The notes under the pieces were generated by a model. The model did no database searches. It had not been told where the DNA came from and saw only the letters and a list, made by a program, of their open reading frames with translations. DNA of 64,000 nt from Treponema brennaborense (GTDB taxonomy: Bacteria > Spirochaetota > Spirochaetia > Treponematales > Treponemataceae): positions 186,001 through 250,000 of the forward strand of contig JAMPCJ010000001.1 in assembly GCA_023666275.1 (NCBI GenBank), given 5' to 3'. A program made the translations under genes and the position numbers. Within the stretch, counting starts at the first letter, position 1; each line of letters opens with the position of its first letter. Shown here piece after piece: positions 7,627 through 62,820 of the stretch.

Positions 7627-10600
7627 ATGAAAAAGATGAAAAACCTAAAAGCCGGTAAAACGGTGATTTTATTTTCTTTGGTTTTGTTTATTTTCTATTC
7701 ATGCAGTTTTTTGGACAGCTTTTCCGAAGATGAAAATAATGGCATTCAAATTACAAGCTTAACGCTCGCGAAGCAAGCGCTTTCTGTTTCTGTCAGTGAA
7801 ATGGCGTATATTTCCGTAAACATGAAGCCTGCGGATGTTCAAAAAGATATAAAACTCAACTGGTCGTATGACAGCAATATTATTACAGCCGATACAGATT
7901 CCGCTTGGGGAGTTACGATAAAAGGCTTAAAAGAGGGGCAAACGAATTTGAAATGTTCGTATGGCGGTTATGAAGCGACATGCATAATCACAGTGAAAGG
8001 TTTCGCTGAAAATTATGAGGAAACAATCGAACCGTATATTTATTCGAGTACTTCGATTATACAAACCTCGCCGGGAATAACGGAAAAAGTATATGTTTCT
8101 TTGTACGGCGGAAGCGCAGCGGATATTGACGGCTATTCTTGGACTCTTGACAACGCAGGTGTCTGTTCGATAGAACCTGCGGGACAGTATTGTTTAATTA
8201 CGGCAAAAGATGCCGGATATGCGCGCATAAAAATCACTCATGCAAAAGCCGCGTATCCGTACTATATGGGCGTTTACGTTTTCTCCGATGCGACGAAAGT
8301 AAGTTACATAACGACTTCGGCAAATATTCTTACAATGAATCTTGCTGACGACGAACAGACAATTTCGGTTTCGCTTGTAAACGGGAAAGACACTTCCTCC
8401 GACAGCAGTTTTGCTTGGGAAGTTGTAAACGACGGAAGCGATTGCCCGATTCGCTGGGAAACGAACGGAAACAAAGCTGTAATTACGCCTTTTAAAGCGG
8501 GAAGCTGCACACTGCGTGTAACGCATCCGGATGCATCTTATCCGCTTGAAATTTTGTGCCGCGTAATTTCCGTTGTGAAAAATGTTTACATTCAGCCTGA
8601 TAAAACAATGGTAACGCTTTCGGGAAATACAGAAGCGACGGTAAAATCGGTGCTTGAAAACATCAATACAGGTGAATACGATGTTGATGCTTACACCTAT
8701 ACACTTGACGATTACAATGTCGCGGAAATTGTCGGCTATGTCGGAAACGAAGTCATGCTCAAAGGAAAGGCAAACGGCTCGTGCAAACTTTTAATCGCGC
8801 ACGAAAAAGCCGCCTACACACGGGAAGTTCTGCTCGTTGTAAACGGTCAGCTCACCGATGCGGTTGACTCAAGCTGTTACATTACAACAAGTCAAAACTA
8901 TATACGCATGAAAGCAGGCGGCAGCGGAACGTCTGTGGATATTTCGCTCAAAGGCGGCGAAGACGGCGACGAAAACAATTTTGTCTGGAGCATAAAAAGC
9001 GTTGCAGCGGACGGAAGTGCAAACGATGTTGTTTCAATGGATACGGCGCACGGGAATGTCAATTACGCCAGAAGTGCACTGCAGACATACGCGCACGGGC
9101 AGGCTTTTATCGAGCCGCAGTGTGCCGGCACCGCGGTTATCACCGTTTCGCATCCGAAAGTCGTATATCCGACGGAGATTTTGGTGAAAGTGTTAAGCGA
9201 AGACGCGATTTTGGATGAGCCGCTTTATTTTACGGGGAACGGCATTATCCGAATCCTCAACGGCGAATCAGAGGAATACACGGTACTGCTTAAAGGCGAG
9301 AACAAAAAGACAGGTGATGACAATGACATTGAATGGAAATGCGACAATACGAAAATAAATATTTCCGCAAGCGCAAATGTTGCCGAAATTAAAGCGCCAA
9401 GTTCGGGAATCGGAAACACGGTTTCCACCCTCACGATAAGCCACAGTAAAGCGGATGCCGATAAAAAAGTGCTGGTGCTGACGGCGGATACGGAAGAAGA
9501 ACTTGAAAATATGAAAGCGCTGTATTCCGATAAACTGTATTATAATTTCGAAGTCGGCGATGCGGCTTATTGTTCGACAGATTATGTGGGTTTTGATAAA
9601 AAAGAAACAGTAATTGATGCTGACGGAAATGAAACGGAAAAATTTGTGCCGTATGATTTCAGCACGGCAGTATGGAAAACAAGCGATTCTTCTGTTTGTT
9701 CGGTTGAAAAAATAACGCAGAATCCGCTGTCGGCTCGTATAACCGGTCTTAAAGCAGGAACTGCGGTTGTTGCTGTAAGCGTAACCGACAGCGAGGGAAC
9801 ATATACGTGCGAATATGCAATCACCGTTTATCCCAAAGGAACGATTCAGACAGAACCTGAAATTTATTTTACGACAAGTCAAAACGTTGTGAATCTTTCG
9901 GGTGCGGGAAAAGAAAGCACGATAAGAATTTCCGCAATCAATTTAACTTCTTCCGAATATTCAAAAATCGACTGGACTTCAAGCGATGAAAGCGTTGCGA
10001 CCGTAATCGGGAACGGATTAAGCGCGAACATAACGGCGGTGTCCGAAGGCGAAGCGGTAATTTCCGCATCACACGAAAAAAGCCAAAACACGCTTAAAAT
10101 CTATGTACGGGTCGGAAGTGAATATGTTATTCCGGATGCAAAACCGGTCGTTTATATTTCCGCCGCCGATGTGCTGACAATGCTTAAAGACGATCCTGCA
10201 CAAAAACTTACCGCCGTTTTGATGAACTTCACCGAAACGGATACATCGGGATTTTCTTTTGAAATAGACAATGAACAAGTCGCGGCAATTTCAAGCCAGT
10301 CCGTAAACGGGACTGCCTTTATAAAGCCGGTTTCAAGCGGTCAGGCGGAAATTACGATATCGCATACACAAACGAGCATCGTAAAAAAAGTTTTGGTTGT
10401 TGTGGGAAATTCGAGCGAGGAACTCAAAAGTTTTACGTACCTTACAACAAGTTCGAATGTTGTTGCGGTCGGCGAGGGAAACACCAAGACAGTTTCCGTT
10501 TCCGTGAAAAATTCGGACACGGTGATTGTCGACGGCTACACCTGGTCGTCTTCCGACGCAAGCATTGTCGACGTAACAGGGCGCGGAAGTACTGCTGTTT

Positions 10601-13482
10601 TGACGGGGAATTCAATAGGAACCGCAGTTATTGAAGTGAAAAACAAAAACTGCTCATATCCGCTGCAAATCATTGCGCAGTGCGTCGATCCGATCGCAGC
10701 AGCGGCAAATCCGTACATTCAGCTTACATCTTCCGTTATTACGGTGAATGTGAGTTCGTCATATACGTCTGTTTCCGCGGATTTGGTCGGCGGCAGCGAA
10801 AAAGATTTTTCGGACTTTGTCTGGACTTCGAGCGATTCATCTGTTTGCGTATGTTACGGACAAAACGAAGTGGGAAAAATAAGGGCATTGAAATCCGGAA
10901 CAACGTATATCACGGTTTCTCATCCGAAAGCGCAATATTCGGCGCAGCTGCTTGTCGTTTGCGATGAAGTAAAAGAAAGCGAATGTTACATTTCGGTTCC
11001 GTCAAGCATCATTTCAATGAAGCCGACAGATTCAAGCCAAACCATCACGGCAAATCTTATAAACGGAAGTGCTACCGATAAATACAACTTCACTTGGTCG
11101 CTCGATGTTTATGATATTGTCGACTTTGTGTATTCCGCCAATGTCTGCACAATCACGCCTTTGCAGCAGGGGCAGGCTGTAATTACCATTCATCACCCGA
11201 AATCAGCTTATGACCAGCAGATTGCAGTAACAGTTCAGGAATATACAACGTTCGCTTTTCCCGACGATTACACTTCCATAACGCAGGGAAATGTTTCGTT
11301 TAAGACAATGCAGGTTCCCACAACGAAAGTCGCAACGTATGTCGAATACTCTGTGGACAATCCCGATATTTGCTCGATTACGGGAACAAAGACGACGGCG
11401 CAGATTACGGCGGTCAAGGCGGGAACAACGACTGTCCGCGCAAAACTCGTCGCATCTTCGACAGGTGTTTCTCAGGCAAGCGCGGAAATGATGGTTTATG
11501 TAAAAGAAGCCGCCGTCAATGCATGCTATATTTCCGCCGCAAGCACAATCTATACCGTGAACAAAGGGAAAAGCCAAACGCTGAGTGCCTCGATTTCGGG
11601 CACGGGAATTGCGGAAAGCGACCGCTATAATTTAAAATGGACGACAAGCGATACCGATGTAATAAACATTACGGGCGTATCTTCTGACGGCACGGTTACG
11701 GGACAGTCGATTTACATTACCGCACTCAAAGCGGGCGAAGCGCTTATCACGTGTTCGCACGAGAAAGCGGCAAGTGATTTGATGTTTTATGTTCTGGTTC
11801 CGGGAAGCGGCACAAAATCCGTAACGCTCAATAAATCCTACATTACGCTTACGAAAGGCTCTTCCGGCACGACATTGAAAGCGACAATCGAAAACGCGGA
11901 AAGTTCGAACGATTACAACGATCTTATATGGACGGTTTCTTCGTCGAACAACGAGGAAGTGTGCCGCGTAATGGGAAACGGACAGAATGTAACGATATAT
12001 CCGATAAATGTCGGCGAAGCAGAAGTTATGGCGCAGCTTCCCGACAGCCCAAGCACCGCAAAATGCACAGTTTTGGTTCAGGCGGGCAAGAGTTTTACAT
12101 TCGAGCAAAGCGGAGGCACTGTGCAGCCGTTCCATTCCAAAAAGTATAAGTACACGGTAAGTCCGCCGGATGCGAATTTGACTTGGACGATAAATCAAGG
12201 AGACGACTACTTCAGCTTTAATGACTTGGGCTGCGACGAAAAAGGCGTCGGCTATGTTGAAATTGAAGGAATAAAAGAAGGCAGCGGCACTTTGGTATGT
12301 CTCACCGACGGCGGTGCAAAAGGTCAGATGAGTATCAAAGTAGATTGGAATTACGAGTTCAAAATATATTCGACACGGCTTTCGGGAAGCCCTGATAATC
12401 TATACGTCGTTGAATACAAAGTAAGCCCGGCTGATGCCGTTATTGATGTAGCTGGAAACGGATTATGCGAATTCTCCCAGAACGACGATGGATTCGGAAA
12501 CGGCAGAATAGAAATCTCGCCGCACACAGAAGGTTCGGATGCAATAACAATCAAGGCAAAGAATCCGAATGACAGCAACAAGATAATAGGCAGCTATAAT
12601 GTGGACGGAACGTTCTACTATGATTCGATTACAGTGAAATATAAAAAACTAAGCGATGTCGCATACGCAGACAACACAAAGACAGCTTGGTGGTCTGATT
12701 TTGAAAATGATACGATTACCTTAGGGGACGGAGAAAAACTGACATTTTTGTTTGAAGTTTCGGAAACGAAGCTTAAAGACTTGAAAATCAGCGCCGCTTT
12801 GAAAAGTAAGAAAGACACGAACATCTTGTTGGAGCCAGGTGCTGTCAGCGGGCAGTTCATACTGAGCCACAAGACTGATTTTCAATCTCCTGCATACAGG
12901 ATAAACAAAGGATACAGACCAACCTATAAAGGTTCTGTCTCGTATCCTGACGGGACGCCGATAAAACTGGATGATTTCAGAGAGGAATGGGCCTCTGATG
13001 ATTATCATTGGTGGAATCTTACCGGTGATCATAATAAAAGAAAAGCCTGGTTTTATCTTCGAAATGACAAAACTTCAAGTAGATTGTATGAGATATACTC
13101 TGGGGAGTATGAAGGAGGTACGTCTCGCAAATTGCTGAAAGATAAATCCTCTAAAAATAATGATTGGGGTGTTATTCGCGACACAAGTCTTGACGGCACG
13201 TGTTATTCTGTGGAAAAATTTCAAAACTATTTGTGGTATTATGTCCCCGCCTGGGAAAAAGAGTACGGAGGCAACGACAAACTCACTTTTGTTCATGAAT
13301 ATGGAGAAATCGACACTGACCATATCGATGCCGCATATTACGATGTAACACCTGACACAGCAATTGTGGAGGAAACACAGGCAGATGTCTTGGAAGTGTC
13401 ATTTGAACATAACGGCAAAGAGCGGAAAAAGTCTTATCTGATTTATGTCGTCAAGCGCAATTCCGCTTGTACGCAAAGATGA
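7627..13482 (+). CDS. Giant Ig-like (BIG2-type) repeat lipoprotein
   Basis: 1951 residues from ATG 7627 behind AAGGATGAGG. A basic start and hydrophobic core end in FYSC, a likely lipobox. I count about 15 Ig-like repeats of roughly 95-125 residues between residues 40 and 1540. Each begins like CYITTSxN and ends like GxAxIxxSHxKAxYP followed by a strand, the pattern of group 2 bacterial Ig domains. The last ~400 residues are not repeated and are rich in aromatic and charged residues. Such proteins are usually surface-exposed adhesins. Lying between virB10 and virD4, it may promote donor-recipient contact; that is inference. Confidence 0.85.
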   Translation: MKKMKNLKAGKTVILFSLVLFIFYSCSFLDSFSEDENNGIQITSLTLAKQALSVSVSEMAYISVNMKPADVQKDIKLNWSYDSNIITADTDSAWGVTIKGLKEGQTNLKCSYGGYEATCIITVKGFAENYEETIEPYIYSSTSIIQTSPGITEKVYVSLYGGSAADIDGYSWTLDNAGVCSIEPAGQYCLITAKDAGYARIKITHAKAAYPYYMGVYVFSDATKVSYITTSANILTMNLADDEQTISVSLVNGKDTSSDSSFAWEVVNDGSDCPIRWETNGNKAVITPFKAGSCTLRVTHPDASYPLEILCRVISVVKNVYIQPDKTMVTLSGNTEATVKSVLENINTGEYDVDAYTYTLDDYNVAEIVGYVGNEVMLKGKANGSCKLLIAHEKAAYTREVLLVVNGQLTDAVDSSCYITTSQNYIRMKAGGSGTSVDISLKGGEDGDENNFVWSIKSVAADGSANDVVSMDTAHGNVNYARSALQTYAHGQAFIEPQCAGTAVITVSHPKVVYPTEILVKVLSEDAILDEPLYFTGNGIIRILNGESEEYTVLLKGENKKTGDDNDIEWKCDNTKINISASANVAEIKAPSSGIGNTVSTLTISHSKADADKKVLVLTADTEEELENMKALYSDKLYYNFEVGDAAYCSTDYVGFDKKETVIDADGNETEKFVPYDFSTAVWKTSDSSVCSVEKITQNPLSARITGLKAGTAVVAVSVTDSEGTYTCEYAITVYPKGTIQTEPEIYFTTSQNVVNLSGAGKESTIRISAINLTSSEYSKIDWTSSDESVATVIGNGLSANITAVSEGEAVISASHEKSQNTLKIYVRVGSEYVIPDAKPVVYISAADVLTMLKDDPAQKLTAVLMNFTETDTSGFSFEIDNEQVAAISSQSVNGTAFIKPVSSGQAEITISHTQTSIVKKVLVVVGNSSEELKSFTYLTTSSNVVAVGEGNTKTVSVSVKNSDTVIVDGYTWSSSDASIVDVTGRGSTAVLTGNSIGTAVIEVKNKNCSYPLQIIAQCVDPIAAAANPYIQLTSSVITVNVSSSYTSVSADLVGGSEKDFSDFVWTSSDSSVCVCYGQNEVGKIRALKSGTTYITVSHPKAQYSAQLLVVCDEVKESECYISVPSSIISMKPTDSSQTITANLINGSATDKYNFTWSLDVYDIVDFVYSANVCTITPLQQGQAVITIHHPKSAYDQQIAVTVQEYTTFAFPDDYTSITQGNVSFKTMQVPTTKVATYVEYSVDNPDICSITGTKTTAQITAVKAGTTTVRAKLVASSTGVSQASAEMMVYVKEAAVNACYISAASTIYTVNKGKSQTLSASISGTGIAESDRYNLKWTTSDTDVINITGVSSDGTVTGQSIYITALKAGEALITCSHEKAASDLMFYVLVPGSGTKSVTLNKSYITLTKGSSGTTLKATIENAESSNDYNDLIWTVSSSNNEEVCRVMGNGQNVTIYPINVGEAEVMAQLPDSPSTAKCTVLVQAGKSFTFEQSGGTVQPFHSKKYKYTVSPPDANLTWTINQGDDYFSFNDLGCDEKGVGYVEIEGIKEGSGTLVCLTDGGAKGQMSIKVDWNYEFKIYSTRLSGSPDNLYVVEYKVSPADAVIDVAGNGLCEFSQNDDGFGNGRIEISPHTEGSDAITIKAKNPNDSNKIIGSYNVDGTFYYDSITVKYKKLSDVAYADNTKTAWWSDFENDTITLGDGEKLTFLFEVSETKLKDLKISAALKSKKDTNILLEPGAVSGQFILSHKTDFQSPAYRINKGYRPTYKGSVSYPDGTPIKLDDFREEWASDDYHWWNLTGDHNKRKAWFYLRNDKTSSRLYEIYSGEYEGGTSRKLLKDKSSKNNDWGVIRDTSLDGTCYSVEKFQNYLWYYVPAWEKEYGGNDKLTFVHEYGEIDTDHIDAAYYDVTPDTAIVEETQADVLEVSFEHNGKERKKSYLIYVVKRNSACTQR

Positions 13483-27339: not shown

Positions 27340-28044
27340 TTAAAATTGCTTTTCCAAAAGATTTATAACACGCTCTTTCCAAATATAATGAATCGGCTCT
27401 AATAACTGACAGGAAATTGTCGAAAAGATTCTGCTGTCTGCATTGTCGAGCCTTGAACGGACTTTATGCACCTGCAATAAAACCGACTGTTCGGGATTGA
27501 CAAAAGAAATGTGAATGCTGAAATTTTCAAGGTTCTTGAAAAACGGATTTTCAAAAGGTGTTATAACGCAAACACCGTGCATTGAAACATCAAGCAATGC
27601 GCACGGCTGGATTACTTTTGCGGTCTTTGAAAAAAGTTTTTGTTCTGGAGAAGAAAGTCCGAAAGCTGAAAAGTTTGTTTTTCCGATTTTAATGCGCTGT
27701 TCTTTTCTTCTGCCGTACTTTTCGTATTTTTGTTCTAAAGAAGAAATGTACTCTAAAACTTCCCGTAAATCCTTTTCGCACTCTTCAACTGTTCCTGCAA
27801 GCCAGTCCAATCCGCTTTCAAAAACCTTGAAACGTGCCTGCGAAATCGTATGTACGGCGTCTTTCTGAAAAGTTGCCGAAAGCAAAAGCTTTTCGCCTTC
27901 GGCGAACTTGAAGTCGCCAGAGAATTTGAAAAAAAGAATTGTTTTCTCGGTTCGTTTTAAAACACAGTTTATATCGTTCTTCCCTTGTGTAAAAAAGAGA
28001 GAGATAACATTCATCCCGTCCAATAGTTCTTTTGTTATGTTCAT
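27340..28044 (-). CDS. PilZ-domain protein (c-di-GMP receptor)
   Basis: 234 residues. A helical N-terminal module is followed by RRKEQR (112-117) and DVSMHG (152-157), the two PilZ signatures that bind cyclic di-GMP. The domain order matches spirochaete YcgR-like or PilZ-type proteins. The start overlaps the previous gene's stop by four bases, so the two are coupled. It could link element transfer to the host's second-messenger state; target unknown. Confidence 0.8.
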   Translation of the reverse strand: MNITKELLDGMNVISLFFTQGKNDINCVLKRTEKTILFFKFSGDFKFAEGEKLLLSATFQKDAVHTISQARFKVFESGLDWLAGTVEECEKDLREVLEYISSLEQKYEKYGRRKEQRIKIGKTNFSAFGLSSPEQKLFSKTAKVIQPCALLDVSMHGVCVITPFENPFFKNLENFSIHISFVNPEQSVLLQVHKVRSRLDNADSRIFSTISCQLLEPIHYIWKERVINLLEKQF

Positions 28045-28508
28045 GTGATTTCCAGCCTTTTGCTTTTTTTGCAGTATTTGTTGTAAAGAAAAAAAATGTC
28101 TTCCTTGCGGCTTCCGTACAATTCAATTTGATTGGCAAGTTTCTTCCAAAAATCCACTGACAGCGAAAAAGGCGCATAACGGTCTTTTTTTGTAAGAATA
28201 AAAAGCGCGTGTTTCAGGTCGTCTATTTTGCGTCCTTTCGCCTTATATAAAACATACAGCGGAATGTCTATACCCGGAAGTCTTACTGCATCTCCGTCTT
28301 TTTCGTTCTGCCATTCCGTTGCCAAATATGCCCTCCGAAAATCGGCGAATGTGTAAAAAAGAACAAAAACCGTTCTTCCCAAAAATGTGAATACAACATA
28401 ATTTCCGTCTTCGCTGTCTTTCGGAATATCAGCAGGCAGCCCTTGCGCAAAAAGCGAGTAAGGAACTACAGCATTTATGGGAACATGCACACATATGTTA
28501 TTTCGCAT
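28041..28508 (-). CDS. Unknown protein coupled to the PilZ gene
   Basis: 155 residues from ATG 28508. Not recognised. It is soluble, with a strand-rich N-terminal half (YVVFTFLGRTVFVLFYTF) and a basic C-terminus. There is no Shine-Dalgarno; TATAAT ends six bases before the ATG, predicting a leaderless mRNA. It forms a two-gene operon with the PilZ protein. Confidence 0.7.
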   Translation of the reverse strand: MRNNICVHVPINAVVPYSLFAQGLPADIPKDSEDGNYVVFTFLGRTVFVLFYTFADFRRAYLATEWQNEKDGDAVRLPGIDIPLYVLYKAKGRKIDDLKHALFILTKKDRYAPFSLSVDFWKKLANQIELYGSRKEDIFFLYNKYCKKSKRLEIT

Positions 28509-28568: not shown

Positions 28569-28597
28569 TTGCACAAAATACTTAACAGTATTATGAT
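28569..28597 (+). promoter_or_regulatory. Promoter of the ArdC-like/polyvalent operon
   Basis: TTGCAC (28569-28574), a 17-bp spacer and TATGAT (28592-28597). The start near 28604 leaves a ~170-base structured leader. Confidence 0.7.
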
Positions 28598-28642
28598 ATT
28601 GTAAATTGTACAAATAAACTGTTGTTTTTAATTGTACAGCCG

Positions 28643-28770
28643 GTTTCTGTCAGAAACTGCTTTTAATGCTCCTTGAATGTCCTGCTGTTCGGAACTCCTA
28701 GATCGGCAGGACAAGCGCATTAAAATCAAGGAGGATTTTGTTCCTCCTGCAAAATTTTTTAAGGAGGAAC
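28643..28770 (+). promoter_or_regulatory. Structured 5' leader with alternative hairpins
   Basis: Stem 1 is GTTTCT/AGAAAC (28643-28657). TGTCCTGCTG pairs with CGGCAGGACA (28678-28687 / 28704-28713). TAATGC/GCATTA (28664-28669 / 28717-28722) and CTCCTTGA/TCAAGGAG (28669-28676 / 28726-28733) cross each other. TCCTCC (28742-28747) can pair either with GGAGGA (28730-28735) or with the ribosome-binding site GGAGGA (28763-28768). An 11-codon frame (ATG 28666 to TAG 28701) runs through it. The layout suggests a translational switch. Confidence 0.6.
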
Positions 28771-28774
28771 AATT

Positions 28775-29518
28775 ATGAGTTCTCTTGACCAAAACACACC
28801 TTTTAAAAACTCCGTATCCCCAAAACAGTTCAACGGATACTGGATTCCAAACCAAAATGCAAAAATTATCAAAGAAGCAATCGAAAACGGTACCGCTCCG
28901 TTTTTGCCCGACCAATCGGGAAATCTTTCCGGCAAAGCGATTTACAATGGAAATACGGGATTTTGCCTGAATGCGAAAGAACTCATTCCGCTTCAAATCA
29001 CACGAGGCGAAAAATCGGATGTCGTCGCGACATTCAGCACAATCAGCAAGGCAGGGACGAAAATTCGCGAAGGCGAAAAGGGTCTTTTCTATAACTTCAA
29101 GCGCGATGACGGTTCGATCGGCGCTGCGCAATTTTTCTTTCCGGAACAAGCCGAAAATCCCGAAGCCGTGAAAAAAATTACGGAGAAAAAAATCGAAAGA
29201 AAGTTCAAACCTGATACAGTCATTGAAATTACCTCTTCCGAACCTGAAGAATATCTTGCGAATTATGTTGCTGCCTGCAAGTCAGGTGCGCGCGTGAAAG
29301 TTTCAAGCGAAGTTGCAAAGGAATTCACCGAAAAATTCACACCGCTTTTAAATAACCAGCTTGCAAGAGGCGCGGAGCGCGATAAGGAAATGGACACACT
29401 CGGACAGTTCATGTTCAAGGTTGACGTACAGGCGAATAAAATCAATACGGAAATGTCCGCGCAAAAGAAAAAAGAACATCAAAAATCCCAAACGCAGGAA
29501 ATGGAAAGGTCTTCCTAA
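28775..29518 (+). CDS. ArdC-N-like antirestriction/ssDNA-binding protein
   Basis: 247 residues, ATG 28775 behind AAGGAGGAAC. The fold-defining stretches WIPNQNAKIIKEAIENGTAPF and TKIREGEKGLFYNF resemble the N-terminal domain of ArdC, a ssDNA-binding antirestriction domain carried by plasmids. No metalloprotease motif is present, so only the binding domain is here. The C-terminal domain of the 1773-residue protein downstream (from about 40996) is a clear paralogue. It probably protects entering single-stranded DNA early in the recipient. Confidence 0.65.
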   Translation: MSSLDQNTPFKNSVSPKQFNGYWIPNQNAKIIKEAIENGTAPFLPDQSGNLSGKAIYNGNTGFCLNAKELIPLQITRGEKSDVVATFSTISKAGTKIREGEKGLFYNFKRDDGSIGAAQFFFPEQAENPEAVKKITEKKIERKFKPDTVIEITSSEPEEYLANYVAACKSGARVKVSSEVAKEFTEKFTPLLNNQLARGAERDKEMDTLGQFMFKVDVQANKINTEMSAQKKKEHQKSQTQEMERSS

Positions 29519-39400: not shown

Positions 39401-41741
39401 ACTTTCAGGAAATCGCGCCGAGCAATGCTTCACTCAAATCGCTCGAGAAGACGGCGAAATCACCGAAGAAAAAACACGAAGGTGGAACGGAGATGCTTGG
39501 GAATATGTTATCGATACGTTTACGGACTACGAAATAGACGCGGACAAGAAAATCGAAACGCTCAAAAGTTTGCTTAAAGAGGCAGAAAGTCAACTTCCGA
39601 TTGCGGAAAAAGAGCTTGCCGAAAAAGGTGCATTTGTCAATTTGAAAGAAAGCGACTTGGAAATCTTAAAAGAACTTGGTGTTCCTGAAAAAAATCTTAA
39701 TCAAATTGATGACGCTTTGGAGTTTATAAAATTTAAAGATGAAAATGGAAAGGAAATTTCAAAAGAAACCGTTGAAGAAAGATTTGGCAAAGAAAAATTT
39801 TTAGCAGGTATTGCAACTAGTGCGTTTGTTCATTCTTATCAACCGATCATAACTGATACAAGCACATTTGTGCATGATTCTTTTATGGAAACAGGTTTTC
39901 AGATTATGAAAAACGATCCTGCAAAAGCAAAGCACATAGTTGAATTTGATGCATCAAAATATTTTGACCGGAACAGAGATGAGCAACCGACAAACAGGGC
40001 AATGCTTGTCCGAAGTTTAAAGTACGAAGTTCAAGAATTAAAAGATGCAATCGTCGAACTTGAAAAAAGCAAATCGCTTGAAAATATCACGCTTGAACAA
40101 TTCCTTGCGATGCCGATGAAAGACTTTATCCAAGGCGTGAATCCTGCTGCAGAAATGGGCAAAAGTGGAGTTGAAGAAACAATAGAAGCGACCGTTCAGA
40201 AAATGGCAGAAACGGAACGGGACAAAACGATAGGTACAAATCTTGATCGAATGACATATGAGGATTTTATTCAATCCGAATTCGTGAGGGAGAAAACAAG
40301 GCTTATTTATGAGAAATTGAATTTTCCGATGATAACAAAGATAGATTTTGAACAAGCTTTTTCTGATACAAAAGAATTTTTCTCCGATTCGCTTGAAAAA
40401 GAAAACGGTTATACTCCGGAAGATTTTTATATCAAGCAGATTATTCTTCAAGGAATCGATTCCCGCTATGAAAATCTCGATAAAATCGAATTTAGCGATA
40501 TGTACAAAATCGCAGATGACATTCTGCGCGAAAAGCTGCTGAATAAAGATGAGTTTGAAGTAAGAATGAATGCTATTCATGCGGTAAAAAAAGAAAAAGA
40601 AAAGATGGTTTTCGAAGAACAGGAAACAGGGCGTTTCCTTCTTGTGGAAGAAACGGATAACGAATTCGAATTCAATTCAAGGCTTTATGACGTTGAGCTG
40701 AACTTGGTTTCGGAAAAGAAAATCGGCACGGTATTCGACGACAAAAGAAACATTCCAGAACTTACAAAAGCCTGCGACGGTGCGATGGAATTCCACGGCA
40801 TCGACAAGACCGATGTGATGATTTTTGAAGAAGAACGGTTCGAGGAAATGCTTCTCATGCGTAATTCTGCGCAAAAAATAACGAAATCAGCTGGAAATGG
40901 CATACAGCAGAACGAAGATTCAATTCTCGGTACTTCATCCGGCTCGAGTGATGAAAAATCAAAGATTTCGAAAGCCCGCAAAATTTCCAAAGCTATCGAT
41001 CCTGAACAGCCGTATAAAAACAGCGTTTCGGAAAAGCAGTTTTCGGGAAACTGGATTCCGTTCCACAACGCGAAAATCATCAAAGAGTCGATGAACAAAG
41101 GAAATGCACCATTCCTGCCGAACGAGGAAGGTGAAATCACTGCACGACCGATTTACAATGCGAATACGGGTTTTTGCTTGTATGCAAAAGATCTGATTCC
41201 GCTTCAGATTGTCGCGGACGGAAATTTCTCGTTGTCCTCCGCAGTCGTGGCGACTAAGAACAGCATCAATGCGGCGAAGACCAGCGTCAAAGCGGGCGAA
41301 AAAGGATTTTTCTACAACTTCAAGCGTGATGACGGTTCAATCGGAACGACGCAGTTTTTCTTCTCGGAGCAGACGGAAAATCCCGAAGCTGTGAAAAAAC
41401 TCGCTGAAGGAAAAATTCGCAAAAGCAATAATTTTAATAAAACCGTTGAAATCACTTCGGCTGAGCCTGAAGAATATCTTGCAAACTATGTCGCAGCCTG
41501 CAAAATAGGTGCAAAAATGAAAGTATCGTCCGAAATCGCAGAAGAATTCAAGAAGAGTTTTTCACAAGTCTTGGATAATCAATTCGCAAAGAAAGATGAA
41601 TTTGACAAGAAAATCGGAAAGTTAAACGAGCTGTTTTTCAACGCCGACAGAAAATCCGCGCAAATCGTGAAAGACATTGAAAGACAAAATGAAATTTCTA
41701 ATGCAAAACAAAAAATGCAAGCCGTTGCAATGGAGCGGTAG
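36420..41741 (+). CDS. Giant polyvalent protein with zincin and ArdC-N-like domains
   Basis: 1773 residues, ATG 36420 behind GGGAGG. The N-terminal ~110 residues are coiled-coil. A PBECR-type RNase-fold domain lies near 715-850 (VVKNHGNAISEAARG, then NPDRVVYG). A zincin metallopeptidase motif HEYTH lies at 937-941, in APVHEYTHLWDKA. The last ~250 residues (from YKNSVSEKQF, nt 40996) copy the ArdC-like protein at 28775. Around residue 603-627 a 73-bp segment is shared with the MazG-like gene at 47986. Likely carried into the recipient or made there to counter defences; the substrates are unknown. Confidence 0.78.
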   Translation: MELNEKTTTLKDAIANQKATSFALEMLEKTGVAVSLDKEEFNRILNGTEKLQKMVADLEEFKKLKAELDSLQAKHAELLKEQEKVEADRKQKDKEITKSNLQDFFQTVKELDKFIDDEVLIKINAKICEEPGGDHLKIWRGNDFILYVNEYNDEIPDYSIYDDAKLNEIIDELVEYSLVNRNGSLTKFLEDTVYENLQEKINLQKRENSEVENTILVDRNVVDLTPEESERVKKTLKKMPYVEINGVNVFEGKINSVTEEIFLKELVQSKILVDNDHEVYLLPEHYTTAQSAADTLTDNEFLDLKTVTGGKSKVGKRFAQGKEQARDVFVRVKSDITAKEAITSIQDQFKNIRPDMIDGRLILMLDKANQYFEMNIKKDGTMNIIPTSQAYKPSVQNDIAPSVSESISQKNDLSSKRNESSENKVSNTDKKLAETEKNESVIPGITKEPVNGTYAVNEYDFRDRIESAITSDEKIGEKYRATFDLDDKLNVKGLDDIRVEMLQRLMESVGNGERSVSKEEVVNIADGMLNSDGYAQRAHKAKQWEFVEKADFVDPMRVAAMDTLGLDKAIEIFGTLDEPKEVSWELREELRSLGATLKLESRNVTKMEVENIQELAEKVTSAKEQVEIGPKVAEKTQAENLEEIIENAAKRRDEKKLAETMAKEENETFETNFVEAVKSLNIEQEQTPKIQFMKNIPFSKLDLGKVADWQVEEAKEAGIDLSGYKHEITNQFIAHVVKNHGNAISEAARGNVAITKDDLKKLGEVISNPDRVVYGTTRKEFIGGKMVDQQRVIYVKESEKGTNLYFEAVLEGNKNKTLRGKTFFKKNGELTNEALENVISINSAKSNVENIKIAVHEGATISPFRSTETVDVAVNSTSHEQPSNESIAQFVEKSINEYASTKVDTEAYIKENTVYGFTYGNKIYLNADALNSNAPVHEYTHLWDKAIEKTNPALWKRGVELLKTTTMWNEIKNSPAYADIADDENLLASEVHARLSGNRAEQCFTQIAREDGEITEEKTRRWNGDAWEYVIDTFTDYEIDADKKIETLKSLLKEAESQLPIAEKELAEKGAFVNLKESDLEILKELGVPEKNLNQIDDALEFIKFKDENGKEISKETVEERFGKEKFLAGIATSAFVHSYQPIITDTSTFVHDSFMETGFQIMKNDPAKAKHIVEFDASKYFDRNRDEQPTNRAMLVRSLKYEVQELKDAIVELEKSKSLENITLEQFLAMPMKDFIQGVNPAAEMGKSGVEETIEATVQKMAETERDKTIGTNLDRMTYEDFIQSEFVREKTRLIYEKLNFPMITKIDFEQAFSDTKEFFSDSLEKENGYTPEDFYIKQIILQGIDSRYENLDKIEFSDMYKIADDILREKLLNKDEFEVRMNAIHAVKKEKEKMVFEEQETGRFLLVEETDNEFEFNSRLYDVELNLVSEKKIGTVFDDKRNIPELTKACDGAMEFHGIDKTDVMIFEEERFEEMLLMRNSAQKITKSAGNGIQQNEDSILGTSSGSSDEKSKISKARKISKAIDPEQPYKNSVSEKQFSGNWIPFHNAKIIKESMNKGNAPFLPNEEGEITARPIYNANTGFCLYAKDLIPLQIVADGNFSLSSAVVATKNSINAAKTSVKAGEKGFFYNFKRDDGSIGTTQFFFSEQTENPEAVKKLAEGKIRKSNNFNKTVEITSAEPEEYLANYVAACKIGAKMKVSSEIAEEFKKSFSQVLDNQFAKKDEFDKKIGKLNELFFNADRKSAQIVKDIERQNEISNAKQKMQAVAMER
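38224..38296 (+). repeat. 73-bp segment shared with the MazG-like locus
   Basis: Matches 48248-48320 (opposite strand) with three mismatches and no gap, in the same reading frame (VENIQELAEKVTSAKEQV). Confidence 0.92.
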
Positions 41742-56290: not shown

Positions 56291-57550
56291 CTATGCAAAA
56301 CCCCGTTTCAATACCTTGCACAGTCGTTCTTCAGACAAGACGAAAAAATCTCGTGCTGTCCTAATAGCGAAATTATCACGAAATGCTGACACAATTGTTT
56401 CCACTACTTGAATATCAAGATAACTTGTATCACGCGCGCCGTCGGTGTTTTCCGTGTAACTTGTAACCGCGCGTTCAATCAGCACCGTTCCCACCGTATC
56501 AAGACGGTAGGTACAAATGCCGTTATTGAGCATTGTATCTCTGTCGTTGAAATCAAACTCGTCTGCTTCCAATCCCTCGACTTCAAGGTCGGTGGTGTTT
56601 GCGGCAGGGTCATCGGCAAGGCGGCGAGAAAGCACCGCGCACCAAGCGGCAGCCCACACGCATGGAAGCGCAGGGGCATTTCCGCGCGGAACAAGAAGAA
56701 TATGCGGACTATTCACAGTGCTTGCTGCTTTGAGCATTGTTTCGTCCGTGGAAACATCGCCGAGTTCGCCCGAAAGTGCGATGAAGCATCGCCCGCCAAT
56801 TTGACGAATCGCGGTATAGCGGTCTTTCAGTTCGGCGGCAATCGCTTTTAGGCTTTGCACGTCAGAGAATTCGCTTGCAAGATAGTGATAGCGAACTGCA
56901 CCGAGTTTTTCCAGCGGAGCTGCAAGATCGGGAACAAGTGTCCCTTTTATAACCGTTCCTGCGGTAATCGTCACTCCCGAAGAAAGAGATGCAAGCGTTA
57001 CGCGCACGGCGTTGCTTGATTCTCCCTTTACCGCGGCAGAAAAAGAAACCGAAACAGAGTTCTCTTCTTCAATAACTTCCGCCTCGACCGGAAAATTGTC
57101 GCTTCCGTTTACTGCTGCCGTAATTGCGCTTGCGACTTCTTTTGCTGTGGCTTCCGTTTTTACGGCAGCGGAAACCGAATCCCCGTTCACCGTAATGCTA
57201 ACAGATCCAGCCGCCGCATTGTTCGCGATAACAGCAAAACTCTGCGTCCACTTTGTTCCCGCACTCGGTTCTGCAATCGGCAGCACCCACAGTTCTTCGG
57301 TAGTGTTGCGCGAAAGAAATTCAGCCGCCATAATCGCGGCGGGGCTTCCGTTCCCGAACAAAACTTTTGCCTTGTCTGTGCTCCGCACTTGCACAGCCTT
57401 TCCCGCAGCTGCCGTTCCCGACGCTGCCATCGTGCCGATTATCAGGGCTTTTTTTACGTCGCTCACGCTTCCCGCAAGCGAATTGTCGATTTCCTGATAC
57501 TGACCGGGAATAAGCAGTGCATCAGGAATTTCAGTGAATGGAATTGCCAT
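56291..57550 (-). CDS. Mu-like tail sheath protein, C-terminally truncated
   Basis: 419 residues from ATG 57550 (MAIPFTEIPDALLIPGQY). KKALIIGTM, the SITVNGDS strands and DTSYLDIQVVETIVSAFRDNFAIRT match the Mu gpL sheath. Mu gpL is nearly 500 residues. Here the conserved C-terminal ~70-90 residues are replaced by ARDFFVLSEERLCKVLKRGFA, so the end was lost at a deletion joint around 56300-56360. No tail tube, tape measure or baseplate genes follow. Confidence 0.85.
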   Translation of the reverse strand: MAIPFTEIPDALLIPGQYQEIDNSLAGSVSDVKKALIIGTMAASGTAAAGKAVQVRSTDKAKVLFGNGSPAAIMAAEFLSRNTTEELWVLPIAEPSAGTKWTQSFAVIANNAAAGSVSITVNGDSVSAAVKTEATAKEVASAITAAVNGSDNFPVEAEVIEEENSVSVSFSAAVKGESSNAVRVTLASLSSGVTITAGTVIKGTLVPDLAAPLEKLGAVRYHYLASEFSDVQSLKAIAAELKDRYTAIRQIGGRCFIALSGELGDVSTDETMLKAASTVNSPHILLVPRGNAPALPCVWAAAWCAVLSRRLADDPAANTTDLEVEGLEADEFDFNDRDTMLNNGICTYRLDTVGTVLIERAVTSYTENTDGARDTSYLDIQVVETIVSAFRDNFAIRTARDFFVLSEERLCKVLKRGFA

Positions 57551-58105
57551 TTAGTTCTCCATATTTATTTTTTCTTCAACCGACAGGCTGCCCATTTCTG
57601 CGCAGCCGTCCGCGCCTTCAAAGTTTTCAAGTTCGTCGCCGAGCGCAATACAGCCGTCATCGAGTTGTGCTGCGCGATTGTACCAGCTCCAAGAAACAGC
57701 CCACATCGAAATATTGATTTGATCGAGCGTTCCCCTGTACAGGTTTTCAGCCGCAATATCCGTTACTTCTGTTGCATTGTACTTCGACTTAGCGGGGATG
57801 CTTCTGATAACAGGGATTAAAAGCGATGTCATCTTCAAGCCTTCGTCATAGAGCGTGTCCGCGTTGCTGGCGCGGCAGAGTACCCAACTGACAAAGCGGC
57901 ACTCCGCGTTATCGGTTCCCCCGCCGTCGCGAATTTCCATAAGCGACGTGAGAATTGCGGGAGCTTTTGTGGCAAGCCGCCGTATTTCCGCCTCGGTGAA
58001 CTGCCCCGCATGTGCTTCGACTTTAACTTTTTTGTGCTTCGCAAAAGCCGATTCGATAAGGCAGACTGCTTCGTTCCGAATGTCCAGGTAACTGTACCTG
58101 CTCAT
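57551..58105 (-). CDS. Mu gp37/gp38-like tail protein
   Basis: 184 residues from ATG 58105, overlapping the next gene by four bases. RNEAVCLIESAFAKHKKVKVEA and the layout between the morphogenesis protein and the sheath suit a Mu gp37-like (DUF1834-type) tail-terminator or neck protein. Assignment is mainly from position. Confidence 0.6.
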   Translation of the reverse strand: MSRYSYLDIRNEAVCLIESAFAKHKKVKVEAHAGQFTEAEIRRLATKAPAILTSLMEIRDGGGTDNAECRFVSWVLCRASNADTLYDEGLKMTSLLIPVIRSIPAKSKYNATEVTDIAAENLYRGTLDQINISMWAVSWSWYNRAAQLDDGCIALGDELENFEGADGCAEMGSLSVEEKINMEN

Positions 58106-58563
58106 TTTCCTATCCTTGCAAGAAATCCATTTATAATTCCGATAATGTCTGACTTGTTTTCTGCACTCAATCCGAGATACGGACGGGCAGAAATATTTTT
58201 TTCTTTCCAGCCAAGTTGATGTACGGTTGCATAGATTTTTGTTGCGCCGACAAGCACTTTCCAGGAATCCGGCTGTGATTCGATGCTGTCAAGCAAGCTG
58301 CCCGAACGGTAAAGAAGTCCTTTTCTAGGATCGTCTGAACCGAATTTTTTGCGGTAGTAGTATTTCGTGGAATCGGCAAGATCTTTCCAAGTGTCGCCGT
58401 CAGGCGTTGTTTTGGTTTCAAAACGTTCTTTTGTCTGCGTTTCCATTTCAACGCCGATATCGGTGAGCAGTTGTTTTCGATCAGCCGGTTTCAGTGCCAT
58501 ATTGTTGAGGCGTGAGCATAAAGCCCGCAGCTCGTCATCTTGAATCGTTACAAGTGCCGCCAT
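58102..58563 (-). CDS. Phage virion morphogenesis protein (Mu gpG-like)
   Basis: 153 residues. LLTDIGVEMETQTKERFETKTTPDGDTWKDLADST is the hallmark of the family ('...RF-----PdG--W--L...'). HQLGWKEKNISARPYLGLS follows. Needed for tail completion or head-tail joining. The start overlaps the previous stop. Confidence 0.85.
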   Translation of the reverse strand: MAALVTIQDDELRALCSRLNNMALKPADRKQLLTDIGVEMETQTKERFETKTTPDGDTWKDLADSTKYYYRKKFGSDDPRKGLLYRSGSLLDSIESQPDSWKVLVGATKIYATVHQLGWKEKNISARPYLGLSAENKSDIIGIINGFLARIGK

Positions 58564-59003
58564 TAGAAAATCCGTCCTTTTTTGAAAAAACGAGTTTCGG
58601 GAATTCCGTTTTTCCCGTCAGCTTCCACGACAAAGCTTTCCTGCAAGCCGGGACCGGAAAGACCGCCTTTGTATTCCTTGTCGATTTTCTCGATAAGGCA
58701 CATTGTCGTTCTGAACCACTCGCGTTCGTCCTCGGCTGACAAGACTGTGTCCGACAGCCGATGGAGAGCGATGTCCTTGCAGAAGCTTAAAATCGCCAGT
58801 TCGAACTGCGGCGGAATTACCTCGCGGATGTCGCCTGTTTCTTCGTCAAGGAGCCACGGCAGTTGTGCGACGATAATTCCTGTCGCTTCTTGGAGTGCGA
58901 TTTCCACACGCTCCCTGTCGATTCCGTTCCCGTCAGCAGCAAGCGGGAGCGAGGCGGGCGGAAGCCGTTTTTCCAGTTCTGCCGCAGTCAGAAGCGACTT
59001 CAT
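58563..59003 (-). CDS. Mu gp36-like (DUF1320) head-tail protein
   Basis: 146 residues. LQEATGIIVAQLPWLLDEE and LSFCKDIALHRL match gp36/DUF1320 proteins, which sit between head and tail. The stop overlaps the next start by one base. Confidence 0.78.
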   Translation of the reverse strand: MKSLLTAAELEKRLPPASLPLAADGNGIDRERVEIALQEATGIIVAQLPWLLDEETGDIREVIPPQFELAILSFCKDIALHRLSDTVLSAEDEREWFRTTMCLIEKIDKEYKGGLSGPGLQESFVVEADGKNGIPETRFFKKGRIF

Positions 59004-59362
59004 TTTTCTTCCTTGACTTCAATCCATTTGTCAGCCTTGAGTTTTTCGACAATTTCGGCAGGAACTTCGTATTCTGCAAAAGTCTTTGTGATCGTAAGCC
59101 CGCAACGATGATAGTGCAGCGTGTTGCTCTTGTGCTTCAAGATCAGTTTTACTTTCTTTCCCGCCATAACTCCCTCTGCGGACTTGTCGCCACCGCCTTC
59201 AGCCTGTTCTTGTTCTTCCGCAGCGATTTTCGGCGTTTGTTCAGCTGTTTCGTGCGCGGAATTTTCCGAAGATTCGTTGTCGACGTTTTCAGCTGTCGTT
59301 TCTTTCGCCTGTGATTCGGGAAGTTTTTCTTCCGTTGATTTGTTCTTATTCGTTGTCGCCAT
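59000..59362 (-). CDS. Mu gp35-like head-associated protein
   Basis: 120 residues. An acidic, disordered N-terminal half is followed by a small domain (KHKSNTLHYHRCGLTITK, then KLKADKWIEVKEEK) like the HI1506/gp35 proteins found after the major head gene. Confidence 0.7.
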   Translation of the reverse strand: MATTNKNKSTEEKLPESQAKETTAENVDNESSENSAHETAEQTPKIAAEEQEQAEGGGDKSAEGVMAGKKVKLILKHKSNTLHYHRCGLTITKTFAEYEVPAEIVEKLKADKWIEVKEEK

Positions 59363-59371
59363 AATTGCTCC

Positions 59372-60295
59372 TTATGCAAGCCATTGATTGACGATAAGTT
59401 CAACCGCATGGTAATTGATGTTGCCTTCGCCGTTTTCGAGCGTCAGGCGTTCCAAGATTTTCTTTGCGTCCGCTTCAAGACTCGGCGGCACAACAAGCGC
59501 AGTCGGTCTGATGCCAATCGGGTCGCCGCCGTCGCGCTTGAAACTTTGTGCCTGTGCAAGTGCCGCGGCGAAATTGTCCGCAGTGAGAGCCGCTTTCGAA
59601 GCTACCGCCTGCTGCCACAAGCCGTAGCCGAAATTCCCGCGCCAACGGATCCCGTACTGATACAGATCTTTGGTGAATACGGTGTCGTTCTTTGTGTCGG
59701 TAATAGATTCTATTTCCATTCCCGTGCGCTGCTGAAGTATGAACGGTTTGATCGGACGGTTCAAAGAAACCAAGTACCAAGCTGCGCTGTTGTCGGAATC
59801 ACTCTTTTTGTAGATATTGGAAACAAGAGTTTTTGTTCCCGTTCCGTCGGGATTTTCGAAGACGGGGTGTTCTTCATCGAAGAAGTTCTGTCCGTCATAG
59901 CACAGCGACTCAAAACCGTTTTTGAGCAACGCTGCAACTTTGCGGTCAAGGAAGTCGTTCGCTTCCTGCCCCATGCTCTGTGCAATTACCGAATACTGAC
60001 CGAGATTGTCGTCTTCTATGTCGGCGCGGTCTACGCCAAGCGTAGCTTCGAACTTCTTGTTTTCAATCGCGTAACTTGATTCTGACATCGACTTGACGAT
60101 ACGCTCGCCGACCCATTCGCGCATCTGCGGGAACTTTGAGAGCCAGCCGTATGTATTGGAGTTGCTTGCGGACACGACTTCTGTTGCAAGCTTTTTGTAC
60201 AAGGAATTTGCGTTCGCGTTTTGGAACGCAATCTTGAATTCCCCACGAACAGTTGTACGGAGATTGTTAAGTGTCGCACTTGAAATGATAGCCAT
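59372..60295 (-). CDS. Mu gpT-like major head subunit
   Basis: 307 residues from ATG 60295, one base overlapping the protease remnant. TYGWLSKFPQMREWVGERI and the FFDEEHPV stretch are typical of gpT. Length is as expected. Structural, forms the capsid shell. Confidence 0.9.
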   Translation of the reverse strand: MAIISSATLNNLRTTVRGEFKIAFQNANANSLYKKLATEVVSASNSNTYGWLSKFPQMREWVGERIVKSMSESSYAIENKKFEATLGVDRADIEDDNLGQYSVIAQSMGQEANDFLDRKVAALLKNGFESLCYDGQNFFDEEHPVFENPDGTGTKTLVSNIYKKSDSDNSAAWYLVSLNRPIKPFILQQRTGMEIESITDTKNDTVFTKDLYQYGIRWRGNFGYGLWQQAVASKAALTADNFAAALAQAQSFKRDGGDPIGIRPTALVVPPSLEADAKKILERLTLENGEGNINYHAVELIVNQWLA

Positions 60296-61276
60296 TATTC
60301 ACCTGCCTCTTTGATTTTTTTCCAATCTTCTAATGAATAGCCCATAGAAGATGCCCATTTTTTTTCTTCTGCATTCAGTTCTGCGTAATTTGGTTCCGGC
60401 GCGGAACTTTCGGGAACTTGCCCTTCGTCGAAAATTTTTGGTGTCTTCGTCATAATTTTTTCAAACTTGTCGAAGCCGTCCTGTGTTGCGCAAAGCGTAA
60501 GATACTCATCCTTGCTTGCGGGGGGCAATCTTGCCGTCTTTCACCGCCTGTTCAACGGCTGCAGTTGCTTTTGCCTTGAGAGCAGCCGCATTTATCTGCG
60601 CAAGTTGTTTTTCTGCCTTTTCCGCGCGTTCCTGCATTGCGTTCAAGTCGGCTCTCGGTGCGTATGCGGCAAGGTCTACTTGTCCGTTCTTTGTGCCGTT
60701 CGTCCCCGCATTTTTAAGCGAAGCAACTGCGGCAAGAACCTCGTCATTCGTTGCGGTTTCAGGCAAGCCCAAAGCTGCACACAATTCTTTGTCCATATTT
60801 TTCTCCTCCGCAGGTTCGTCCTGCGTTGCATTTAATGCCGGATTTGCAAGGTTCGGAGTGTTCGTTAATGCCGCCCGCAAAATCTCCGTAATTTCCTTTT
60901 TTTCGTTGCACATGAATACAGGGCTGATAAATCGGTACTCCTTGTTTGAAAGTGCTTCTTTTCCCCGCGCATTCCACTCCACATTCGCCCAGATAGAGCC
61001 GTCGCTTTCTGCCGTGAGGTTCGAAAACCAACCGACTGCGGGAGACGGTCTGCCTTGAGGAGCGGCAAGGTCTGTGGAGTGGTTTTCATCGATACACCAT
61101 TTCCTTGCGTGGCCGCTTGCATTCATCCGTGAACAAAAAGCCGTAGCATCGGAGAGTGTCCAGCGCCGACCGTCCGCGCCTTTGATTTCCTTTCCTGCGG
61201 GCAGGATTTGGATTCGTTCAGGGATACTCCCGTCGGCTGAGTTCAGACATAAAAAAAGGCTGTCAGTAATTTTCAT
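60295..61276 (-). pseudogene. Mu gpI/Z-like protease-scaffold, frameshifted
   Basis: First frame: ATG 61276 to a stop at 60506 (256 aa), with the protease pattern LFLCLNSADGSIPERIQILPAG and WCIDENHSTDLA. The C-terminus (ASKDEYLTLCAT to KKIKEAGE) continues in another frame to 60295. The break is a run of six C's on the coding strand (60520-60525 plus strand), where five would restore the frame. A 10-bp inverted repeat with one mismatch (61258-61267 / 61277-61286) straddles the start codon and could be an operator. Confidence 0.82.
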
Positions 61277-61322
61277 ACTGTCAGCCTATCTTATTTTTCC
61301 GGCACGAATATTTTAACCGCTG

Positions 61323-61790
61323 TTACAAATCATTAAACAATAACGGTTGTTTTTCCTGCCGTTTCAGTGCCAATGCTCGCTCGCGCAGACGGTAAATCTG
61401 CGAGAATGTTATCTTATATTCACGGCAAATGTCGCCGCGAGATTCGTCGGTCCCATCGTACTTTTCATAAATTTCTTTCGCTACCTCGTCCCTGAATGCC
61501 CGCGCTTCCTGCGGAATGTAAATCTGCACTCCGCCGAACTGCGACATAATTACATCGAGCATTGTTTCCGCCGTCCCGTCGCCGACCGCATCGGCAAGAA
61601 CACCGAAAAGCGTTTCAGCCGTTTTGGATTTATCACGCTTGAACTTCGGCAGAAAAATCATCTGTCCGCCGTAGTATTGGCAGATTGCGCGAATTCCCTT
61701 TACTGCTTCTTCACGCTCACCTTTGCCAAGCCGTGCGGCGCAGCTTTCGACCATTTCGCTTGCAAGGTTCAGTTCATTTGACATTGACAT
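61323..61790 (-). CDS. mor: Mor-type middle-gene transcription activator
   Basis: 155 residues from ATG 61790, behind GGAAGGAAA; a longer frame begins at 61823. FGGVQIYIPQ and RDEVAKEIYEKYDG followed by a helix-turn-helix (RGDICREYKITFSQIYRLRE) match Mor/C activators of Mu. It normally switches on late or middle genes; those that should follow directly (lysis, terminase, portal) are absent here. Confidence 0.88.
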   Translation of the reverse strand: MSMSNELNLASEMVESCAARLGKGEREEAVKGIRAICQYYGGQMIFLPKFKRDKSKTAETLFGVLADAVGDGTAETMLDVIMSQFGGVQIYIPQEARAFRDEVAKEIYEKYDGTDESRGDICREYKITFSQIYRLRERALALKRQEKQPLLFNDL

Positions 61791-62229
61791 TTTCCTTCCG
61801 GTCGGGATTGTAGCCCGAAGCAATCATCATCTTTCGGAGCGCGGTGATAACATCGGTGGCACCTTTTGCGCTCATAAAGCGCGGATGGTCAGCTCCTGTA
61901 ATGCGCGTGATGAATTTGTACAGGGCACTGTCCGTTTTCTCTCGCGCGACCAATTCCCACATTCCCTTGATATAGTCCATTTGCTCCTCGCTCACGCAGC
62001 CAAGTTCAATTTTCTTTGTTTCCATTTTTTTCACGCGGAAGCCGAGTTTTTTCATTGCTTTGAGTGTGCCGTCAAGTTCTGAAAGTGTCATATCGGAGCA
62101 GCTTGATTTTCTTGATGCACTTTCCAAGACTGCACGGTAATCCGTATCCGTAAGCCCCAGCTGAGCCTTTGCGATATGGATTAACTGAATGAGTTTCGAT
62201 CTTTCGATTTTGCCTTTCATTGTGCTCAT
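61774..62229 (-). CDS. gemA: GemA/gp16-like phage regulator
   Basis: 151 residues from ATG 62229. KLIQLIHIAKAQLGLTDTDYRAVL and HPRFMSAKGATDVITALRKM are the standard GemA (DUF1018) signatures. Mu GemA influences host supercoiling genes. It overlaps the start of mor by 17 bases. Confidence 0.9.
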   Translation of the reverse strand: MSTMKGKIERSKLIQLIHIAKAQLGLTDTDYRAVLESASRKSSCSDMTLSELDGTLKAMKKLGFRVKKMETKKIELGCVSEEQMDYIKGMWELVAREKTDSALYKFITRITGADHPRFMSAKGATDVITALRKMMIASGYNPDRKENVNVK

Positions 62230-62248
62230 CTCGCAAGCCTAAAAACTG

Positions 62249-62295
62249 CCCCCTGTACCGCGTTCGGCTGTACAGCCTACGCATGATACAGGGGA
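62249..62295. other. Hairpin in the gap before gemA
   Basis: CCCCTGTA near 62250 can pair with TACAGGGG near 62287, with an inner CTGTA/TACAG option. It fills the 73-bp gap and may be an attenuator or terminator. Confidence 0.45.
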
Positions 62296-62302
62296 AAGCC
62301 GA

Positions 62303-62617: not shown

Positions 62618-62627
62618 TTCAAATTCC

Positions 62628-62816: not shown

Positions 62817-62820
62817 ATCC

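Follow-up and report, generated by a model that had tools for sequence, protein, structure and literature searches.

A conserved anti-Shine-Dalgarno hairpin in the leader of an ArdC-like gene of Treponemataceae, a probable switch of its translation

Background

The timing of antirestriction functions in conjugative elements is mostly known at the level of transcription, for example from the repressor-controlled promoters of p576. In riboswitch pseudoknots of the preQ1 and SAM-II types, the loop of a hairpin pairs with a strand further downstream, which hides the Shine-Dalgarno sequence (SD); the leader described here, which precedes an ArdC-like gene of Treponema brennaborense, is alike in its proposed loop:SD pairing but has neither a conserved ligand pocket nor an Rfam match. 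In hok-type mRNA, hairpins formed during transcription give way to a stabler fold and access to the start site is altered. Metastable refolding of this kind is also predicted for our leader, although neither a toxin nor an antisense RNA is involved and the toggle is found in one group of relatives only (group I below).

Among proteins that bind single-stranded DNA (ssDNA), gp32 acts as a repressor of the mRNA that encodes it, by way of a pseudoknot-containing leader (PMC535899), and the ArdC-N domain is likewise thought to bind ssDNA (PMC5512222). The present leader resembles the T4/RB69 gene 32 operator in preceding the gene of a mobile-element protein that may bind ssDNA and in its apparent action at the translational level; in gene 32, however, the operator has its pseudoknot at the 5′ end, where it is the nucleation site for the protein and not an anti-SD, the protein is a different one, and protein binding is a proposal in our case (PMC535899). 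A second likeness is to the STAXI motif, a candidate RNA based on pseudoknots whose neighbours include ssb, topoisomerase, integrase and antirestriction genes; in STAXI two or three pseudoknots stand in tandem, frequently with UUCG loops (Weinberg et al. 2010, PMC2864571), whereas the element found here is one hairpin whose loop carries an anti-SD. The third is to EGeRS1 and EGeRS2 of the pLS20 family, special regulatory sequences upstream of the ardC gene of a conjugative element, of which EGeRS1 carries inverted repeats (PMC8708921). EGeRS1 is 420-750 bp long, stands before several operons, has no constitutive promoter and blocks readthrough (PMC8708921), while our leader is of about 170 nt, occupies one genomic place, follows a predicted promoter of its own and is directed at the SD.

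Materials and methods

The window, that is, the whole stretch of DNA that was analysed, comprises 64,000 nucleotides of T. brennaborense (assembly GCA_023666275.1, contig JAMPCJ010000001.1, positions 186,001 to 250,000); coordinates below are those of the window and lie on the plus strand unless marked otherwise. The leader of the window was compared with those of 22 homologous genes of Treponemataceae, whose proteins go down to about 35% identity, the sequences being taken from upstream of the start codons. The leaders fall into group I (the window, L007, L008 and L009, with proteins 59-75% identical to that of the window), group II (L019-L024, L028-L030, L075 and L076) and group III (L010-L014, L016, L025 and L026, with near-copies). 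Folding energies were set against those of shuffled sequences, for the leader of the window 200 shuffles that preserve dinucleotides. Three covariance models were used in genome searches: R1, built from an ungapped set of the hairpin P3 and then extended by the model itself; R2; and R3, which models the hairpin of group III. MAFFT alignments of whole group I and II leaders, together with several alignments of P3, put the stems out of register and were left unused.

The ArdC-like gene and its surroundings

The first gene after the leader (28775-29518) encodes a protein of 247 aa, which matches PF08401 (ArdcN) with an E-value of 4e-4, just below the curated cut-off. Its AlphaFold model (pLDDT 81) was matched by Foldseek to ArdC of plasmid R388 (6i89; E 5e-4, probability 1.00), and the metalloprotease motif HExxH is absent in 18/18 aligned homologs. 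Homologs were detected in 33 of the 274 genomes that were searched within the family. Single-protein scans of genome contigs and of viral contigs returned no relatives; with alignments as queries, none appeared among viral contigs (A1) and only genomes already in the set among genome contigs (A2). Phages yielded no homologs and plasmids a single one, on Treponema succinifaciens NC_015386.1.

The same layout of open reading frames, with two opposite-strand genes upstream and large frames downstream, is seen in several group I and group III relatives. As the downstream frame of the window carries SNF2 and Eco57I methylase domains and T4SS-type genes (named from reading of the frames) lie upstream, the locus is probably an integrated conjugative element. 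Several further observations were made on this neighbourhood. At 40992-41741, another domain of the ArdC-N-like kind, with 55% identity to the first, is fused to the C-terminus of a 1773-aa protein, and it is without a P3-type leader. The two genes divergent from the ArdC-like gene (27340-28508, minus strand) have no Pfam match, and divergent frames of similar size occupy the same place in the homologous loci L066, L067, L068, L070 and L071. Genes that look like those of a Mu-like prophage, judged from their reading frames, adjoin the conjugative element at 56291-63678 (minus strand), and a predicted lipoprotein of 1951 aa with many Ig-like (Big-type) repeats, as read from its sequence, lies among the transfer genes at 7627-13482.

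Transcription and overall fold of the leader

A sigma70-type promoter is predicted ahead of the leader at 28569-28597, with TTGCAC (28569-28574), a spacer of 17 nt and TATGAT (28592-28597), matching at 9/12 positions. The layout is kept in relatives, as TTGCAT or TTGATT followed after 17 nt by TATAATATTG in L007-L009 and as TTGACA-17-TATAATATTG in L021, so that the mRNA is expected to start near 28604.

The RNA of 28604-28800 is predicted to fold with a minimum free energy (MFE) of -66.2 kcal/mol, against -39.7 +/- 4.0 for the shuffles (z -6.6), none of the 200 being as stable as the leader. For most leaders of groups II and III the energies are only mildly better than those of shuffles (z -0.6 to -4.5), hence the support there comes from covariation and not from stability. 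The leader sequence is present in a single copy within its own genome. No Rfam family matched the window at the curated threshold, a permissive search giving matches far below the cut-offs only and none to the leader that exceeded chance, and a DNA-level search of 99 relatives with the leader returned short, chance-level matches outside the window.

The initial annotation had described the leader as a set of mutually exclusive hairpins before the ArdC-like operon, organised as a riboswitch, an attenuator or an antisense-regulated switch. Direct reading of the sequence located all of the complementary segments that it named. The 11-codon frame that it pointed out does exist (ATG at 28666, TAG at 28699-28701), but it lacks an SD before its ATG and is not kept in L007-L009. 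A further frame of 33 codons, from the ATG at 28678 to a stop overlapping the ATG at 28775 (ATGA), was considered for translational coupling and rejected, being without an SD and not conserved.

The P3 hairpin and its anti-SD loop

The universal core of the leader is a hairpin, P3 (28678-28713), which had gone unmentioned in the annotation and which is found in all leaders compared. Its stem has 13 positions (28678-28690 with 28701-28713) including one U-U mismatch, and its loop GGAACTCCTA (28691-28700) contains CTCCT (28695-28699), the most conserved feature among the relatives, with the consensus (A/U)CUCC(C/U/A) of an anti-SD. Comparison of the leaders establishes both this motif and its spacing: CTCC occurs in 23/23 leaders and precedes the GGAG of the ribosome-binding site (RBS) by 33-54 nt, in most cases by 33-40. 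By contrast, 0/124 other frames with SD and ATG from the same sequences carry CTCC at such spacing; 125 were listed, and the sole match proved to be a duplicate of the ArdC-like leader of L014. The anti-SD loop and the SD are the only sequence common to all leaders.

Covariation of the stem was established by several comparisons. In seven leaders, 8/10 pairs are changed on both sides and 81% of the cells are paired, against 65% when shuffled. In ten leaders, 9/10 pairs are changed on both sides with a score of 0.67 against 0.30 for shuffled alignments (0/500), a result which leans towards structure since the alignment was fitted to the model. For P3 of group III, aligned in its own register, 4/7 pairs changed and the score was 0.32 against 0.13 (3/500). 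When arms were exchanged among 19 leaders, none of 2000 permutations reached the energy of the own partners. The stem also contains 14 G-U pairs against 4 A-C, which indicates that the sense strand is the structured molecule.

The pairing of loop and SD would comprise 4-6 bp, and just 4 bp in L009, L013 and L016. Only the flanking pair is swapped within group III, being A-U in L010, L011 and L025 and U-A in L012 and L026; a proof by covariation is impossible, because the CUCC:GGAG core is invariant under the constraint on the SD.

The restriction of the element to one gene was established by the model searches. R1 recovered leaders outside its training set (L023, L024 and, weakly, L020), and in the genome of the window this locus was its sole match at E < 0.5. 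R2 recovered L021, which had not been used in building it, and gave ten strong matches (30.9 bits or more) across the 274 genomes, all upstream of an ArdC-like gene; among its next matches, from 23.6 bits downward, those inspected lack a correctly spaced SD. In the same genomes, R3 found group III leaders of the ArdC-like gene down to E 3e-4, with the exception of G230:C42, which matched better than 5e-4 and lacks a properly placed SD; in the weaker matches inspected, an SD with the expected spacing is likewise missing.

The hairpins P0, P1 and P2

Three further hairpins of the MFE fold lie around P3. P0 (28606-28639), at the 5′ end, has the arms TTGTACAA and TTGTACAG and could be an operator or a hairpin that stabilises the mRNA. 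Counterparts of different sequence, paired by eye, are present in L007, L009, L010, L012, L026 and L076. It may be added that P0 with its TTGTACAA arms lies just after the -10 box, that its counterparts occur in groups I and III, and that the version in L076 has 14 bp.

P1 (28641-28659; CGGTTTCT-GTC-AGAAACTG), like P3 an addition to the initial annotation, was found in 15/15 leaders of groups I and II; its own partners beat those of other leaders and 0/5000 permutations equalled them, a test which leans towards pairing because the arms were chosen by eye. P2 is formed by TTTTAATGC (28661-28669) and GCATTAAAA (28717-28725) and encloses P3. In 13 leaders of groups I and II, 0/2000 permutations of its arms reached the energy of the own partners, and L007 shows an A-U to G-C change. 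In group III, P1 and P2 are both missing. Formation of P2 may put the P3 loop out of reach of the SD unless the junction of P2 and P3 bends. Pairing is conserved among homologous leaders for P3 and, within groups I and II, for P2 and P1.

The annotation had also paired CTCCTTGA (28669-28676) with TCAAGGAG (28726-28733), and it was right that TTTTAATGC:GCATTAAAA crosses this pairing. The pairing itself is present in the window with 8 bp but is weakly conserved: L008 and L009 each keep 6 bp, one of them G-U, L007 keeps 4 bp, and a CCUU:AAGG core is all that persists throughout these three. It would hardly be compatible with P2 on geometrical grounds, as no loop nucleotides would be left to span the helices.

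As a separate observation, the start codon of the group II leaders L019-L024 lies inside an extra hairpin (GGTATC..ATG..GATACC, GGTTTC/GAAACC, GGTGTC/GATACC), the arms of which show paired changes even though the 3′ arm is coding.

The SD1/anti-SD/SD2 toggle of group I

In group I, an anti-SD strand and a second SD are inserted between the position of the first SD and the start codon, an arrangement confined to the window and its three close relatives, L007-L009. SD1 (AAGGAGG, 28728-28734) occupies the position of the real RBS in the other groups and lies 35 nt from the P3 loop, as in the relatives. SD2 (AAGGAGGAAC, 28761-28770) is the RBS of the ArdC-like gene. The strand between them, GTTCCTCCT (28740-28748), can pair with SD1 in a hairpin H1 or with SD2 in a hairpin H2. 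Its TCCTCC (28742-28747) takes part in 9 bp with SD2 (GTTCCTCCT with AGGAGGAAC, 28762-28770), and its alternative partner is the upstream AGGAGGA (28729-28735). These are the two alternatives named in the initial annotation, and comparison establishes that both are possible in 4/4 group I leaders. In L008, G/C/G has become A/T/A across SD1 (AAGGAGGA to AAGGAGAC), the anti-SD (TTCCTCCT to TTTCTCCT) and SD2 (AAGGAGGAAC to AAGGAGAAAC), and both pairings are kept; this triple compensatory change is one event only.

In isolation, H2 is predicted to be more stable than H1 in all four leaders (window, -15.1 against -12.0; L007, -12.4 against -9.8; L008, -18.9 against -7.7; L009, -19.4 against -11.8), and when the RNA is folded stepwise H1 forms first. 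In the predicted ground state of the window SD2 is sequestered, with anti-SD:SD2 pairing at 0.86 in the ensemble, and SD1 also pairs with codons 3-5 of the gene, so that the start site is fully closed. In L009 there is no pairing of SD1 with codons 3-5 and the full-length ensemble prefers H1, the open form.

Proposed mechanism

We consider it probable that the leader is a cis-acting switch on the translation of the ArdC-like gene, in which anti-SD pairing occludes the start site. This part of the initial annotation, in which the RBS of an ArdC-like gene would be covered or exposed by alternative pairings, is supported: the leader is structured and conserved, and the encoded protein matches the fold of R388 ArdC. 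In the mechanism that we infer for the cell, the P3 loop would pair with the SD as a pseudoknot and the SD would be hidden; in groups I and II, P1 and P2 would shape this pairing and may compete with it. In group I a second layer would be added, the start site being open when the CCTCCT strand is with SD1 (H1) and closed when it is with SD2 (H2). Since H1 can form first during transcription and H2 is the more stable in isolation, a new transcript could pass through a short phase of translation before it is shut.

As to the trigger, the most economical candidate is feedback by the encoded ArdC-like protein, which would bind its own leader and block translation until entering ssDNA titrates it and frees the mRNA; this sub-case of the proposed switch is our leading guess, to be taken as tentative. 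It is suggested by the self-repression of phage T4 gp32, an ssDNA-binding protein, via its pseudoknot leader (PMC535899) and by the ssDNA binding attributed to ArdC-N (PMC5512222), the protein here having the ArdC fold and the RNA being found before the ArdC-like gene only. Against it stand the reliance of the binding step on analogy, no kinship of gp32 and ArdC being known, and the loss of P1 and P2 in group III, where the protein would have to recognise little beyond P3 and the SD. In a fuller version the leader RNA would sense the entry of DNA: the mRNA of the ArdC-like protein would be kept shut by that protein via the anti-SD hairpin, an element arriving as ssDNA would titrate the protein and a burst of antirestriction synthesis would follow, and the SD1/anti-SD/SD2 toggle would be a built-in timer. 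This fuller version is rather unlikely.

It is also rather unlikely that the leader is an ordinary one, whose hairpins stabilise the mRNA or fix a constant low translation with no switching. Sequestration of the SD by itself yields constant low expression, and no known ligand, protein or condition alters the fold; yet spacing and loop sequence are conserved across strongly diverged leaders and the two alternative pairings of one strand both survive the triple change, which suggests that both states matter.

A riboswitch that senses a small molecule or an ion, one of the options in the initial annotation, is now disfavoured and appears improbable. The leader is compact, conserved and structured, and occlusion of the SD is the usual output of translational riboswitches, but a common pocket is not to be expected where the anti-SD loop and the SD are the sole sequence conserved across 23 leaders; moreover P1 and P2 are absent in group III, no Rfam riboswitch matches, and the element is bound to one mobile-element gene and not to a metabolic function.

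Action of the inverted repeats as DNA, in a single-stranded promoter or origin used on entry of the element into the cell, is very improbable. According to a passage in PMC8708921, antirestriction genes are controlled by ssDNA promoters in F and ColIb-P9, and for inverted repeats upstream of pLS20 ardC a fold is predicted in either ssDNA or RNA (PMC8708921). Here, however, an ordinary double-strand promoter lies directly upstream of the hairpins, no -35/-10 elements were seen on inspection of the P2 and P3 stems, an anti-SD loop with a constant spacing to the SD is meaningful in mRNA only, and G-U pairs exceed A-C on the sense strand.

Least probable is an attenuator with leader peptide or control by antisense RNA, both offered in the initial annotation and not supported here: small frames do cross the leader and the CTTTT that follows P1 in the window gives a terminator-like prediction at 28641, but the frames are neither preceded by an SD nor conserved, the T-run is missing in L007-L009, leaving no conserved intrinsic terminator, and no minus-strand promoter is predicted in or after the leader, the sole such site (28543) lying upstream and facing the divergent gene.

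Significance of the finding

In the literature searched, the coverage of which leaves most subscription journals outside, no paper describing this leader element was found, and the element looks like a previously undescribed switch setting the amount of the ArdC-like protein. A test of the leader with a reporter, with and without the ArdC-like protein, becomes cheap and concrete with this element. The comparative evidence would add a translational layer to the timing of antirestriction, in the form of a compact RNA that is specific to mobile elements and is built on a universal anti-SD hairpin, in a system that belongs to an under-studied phylum.
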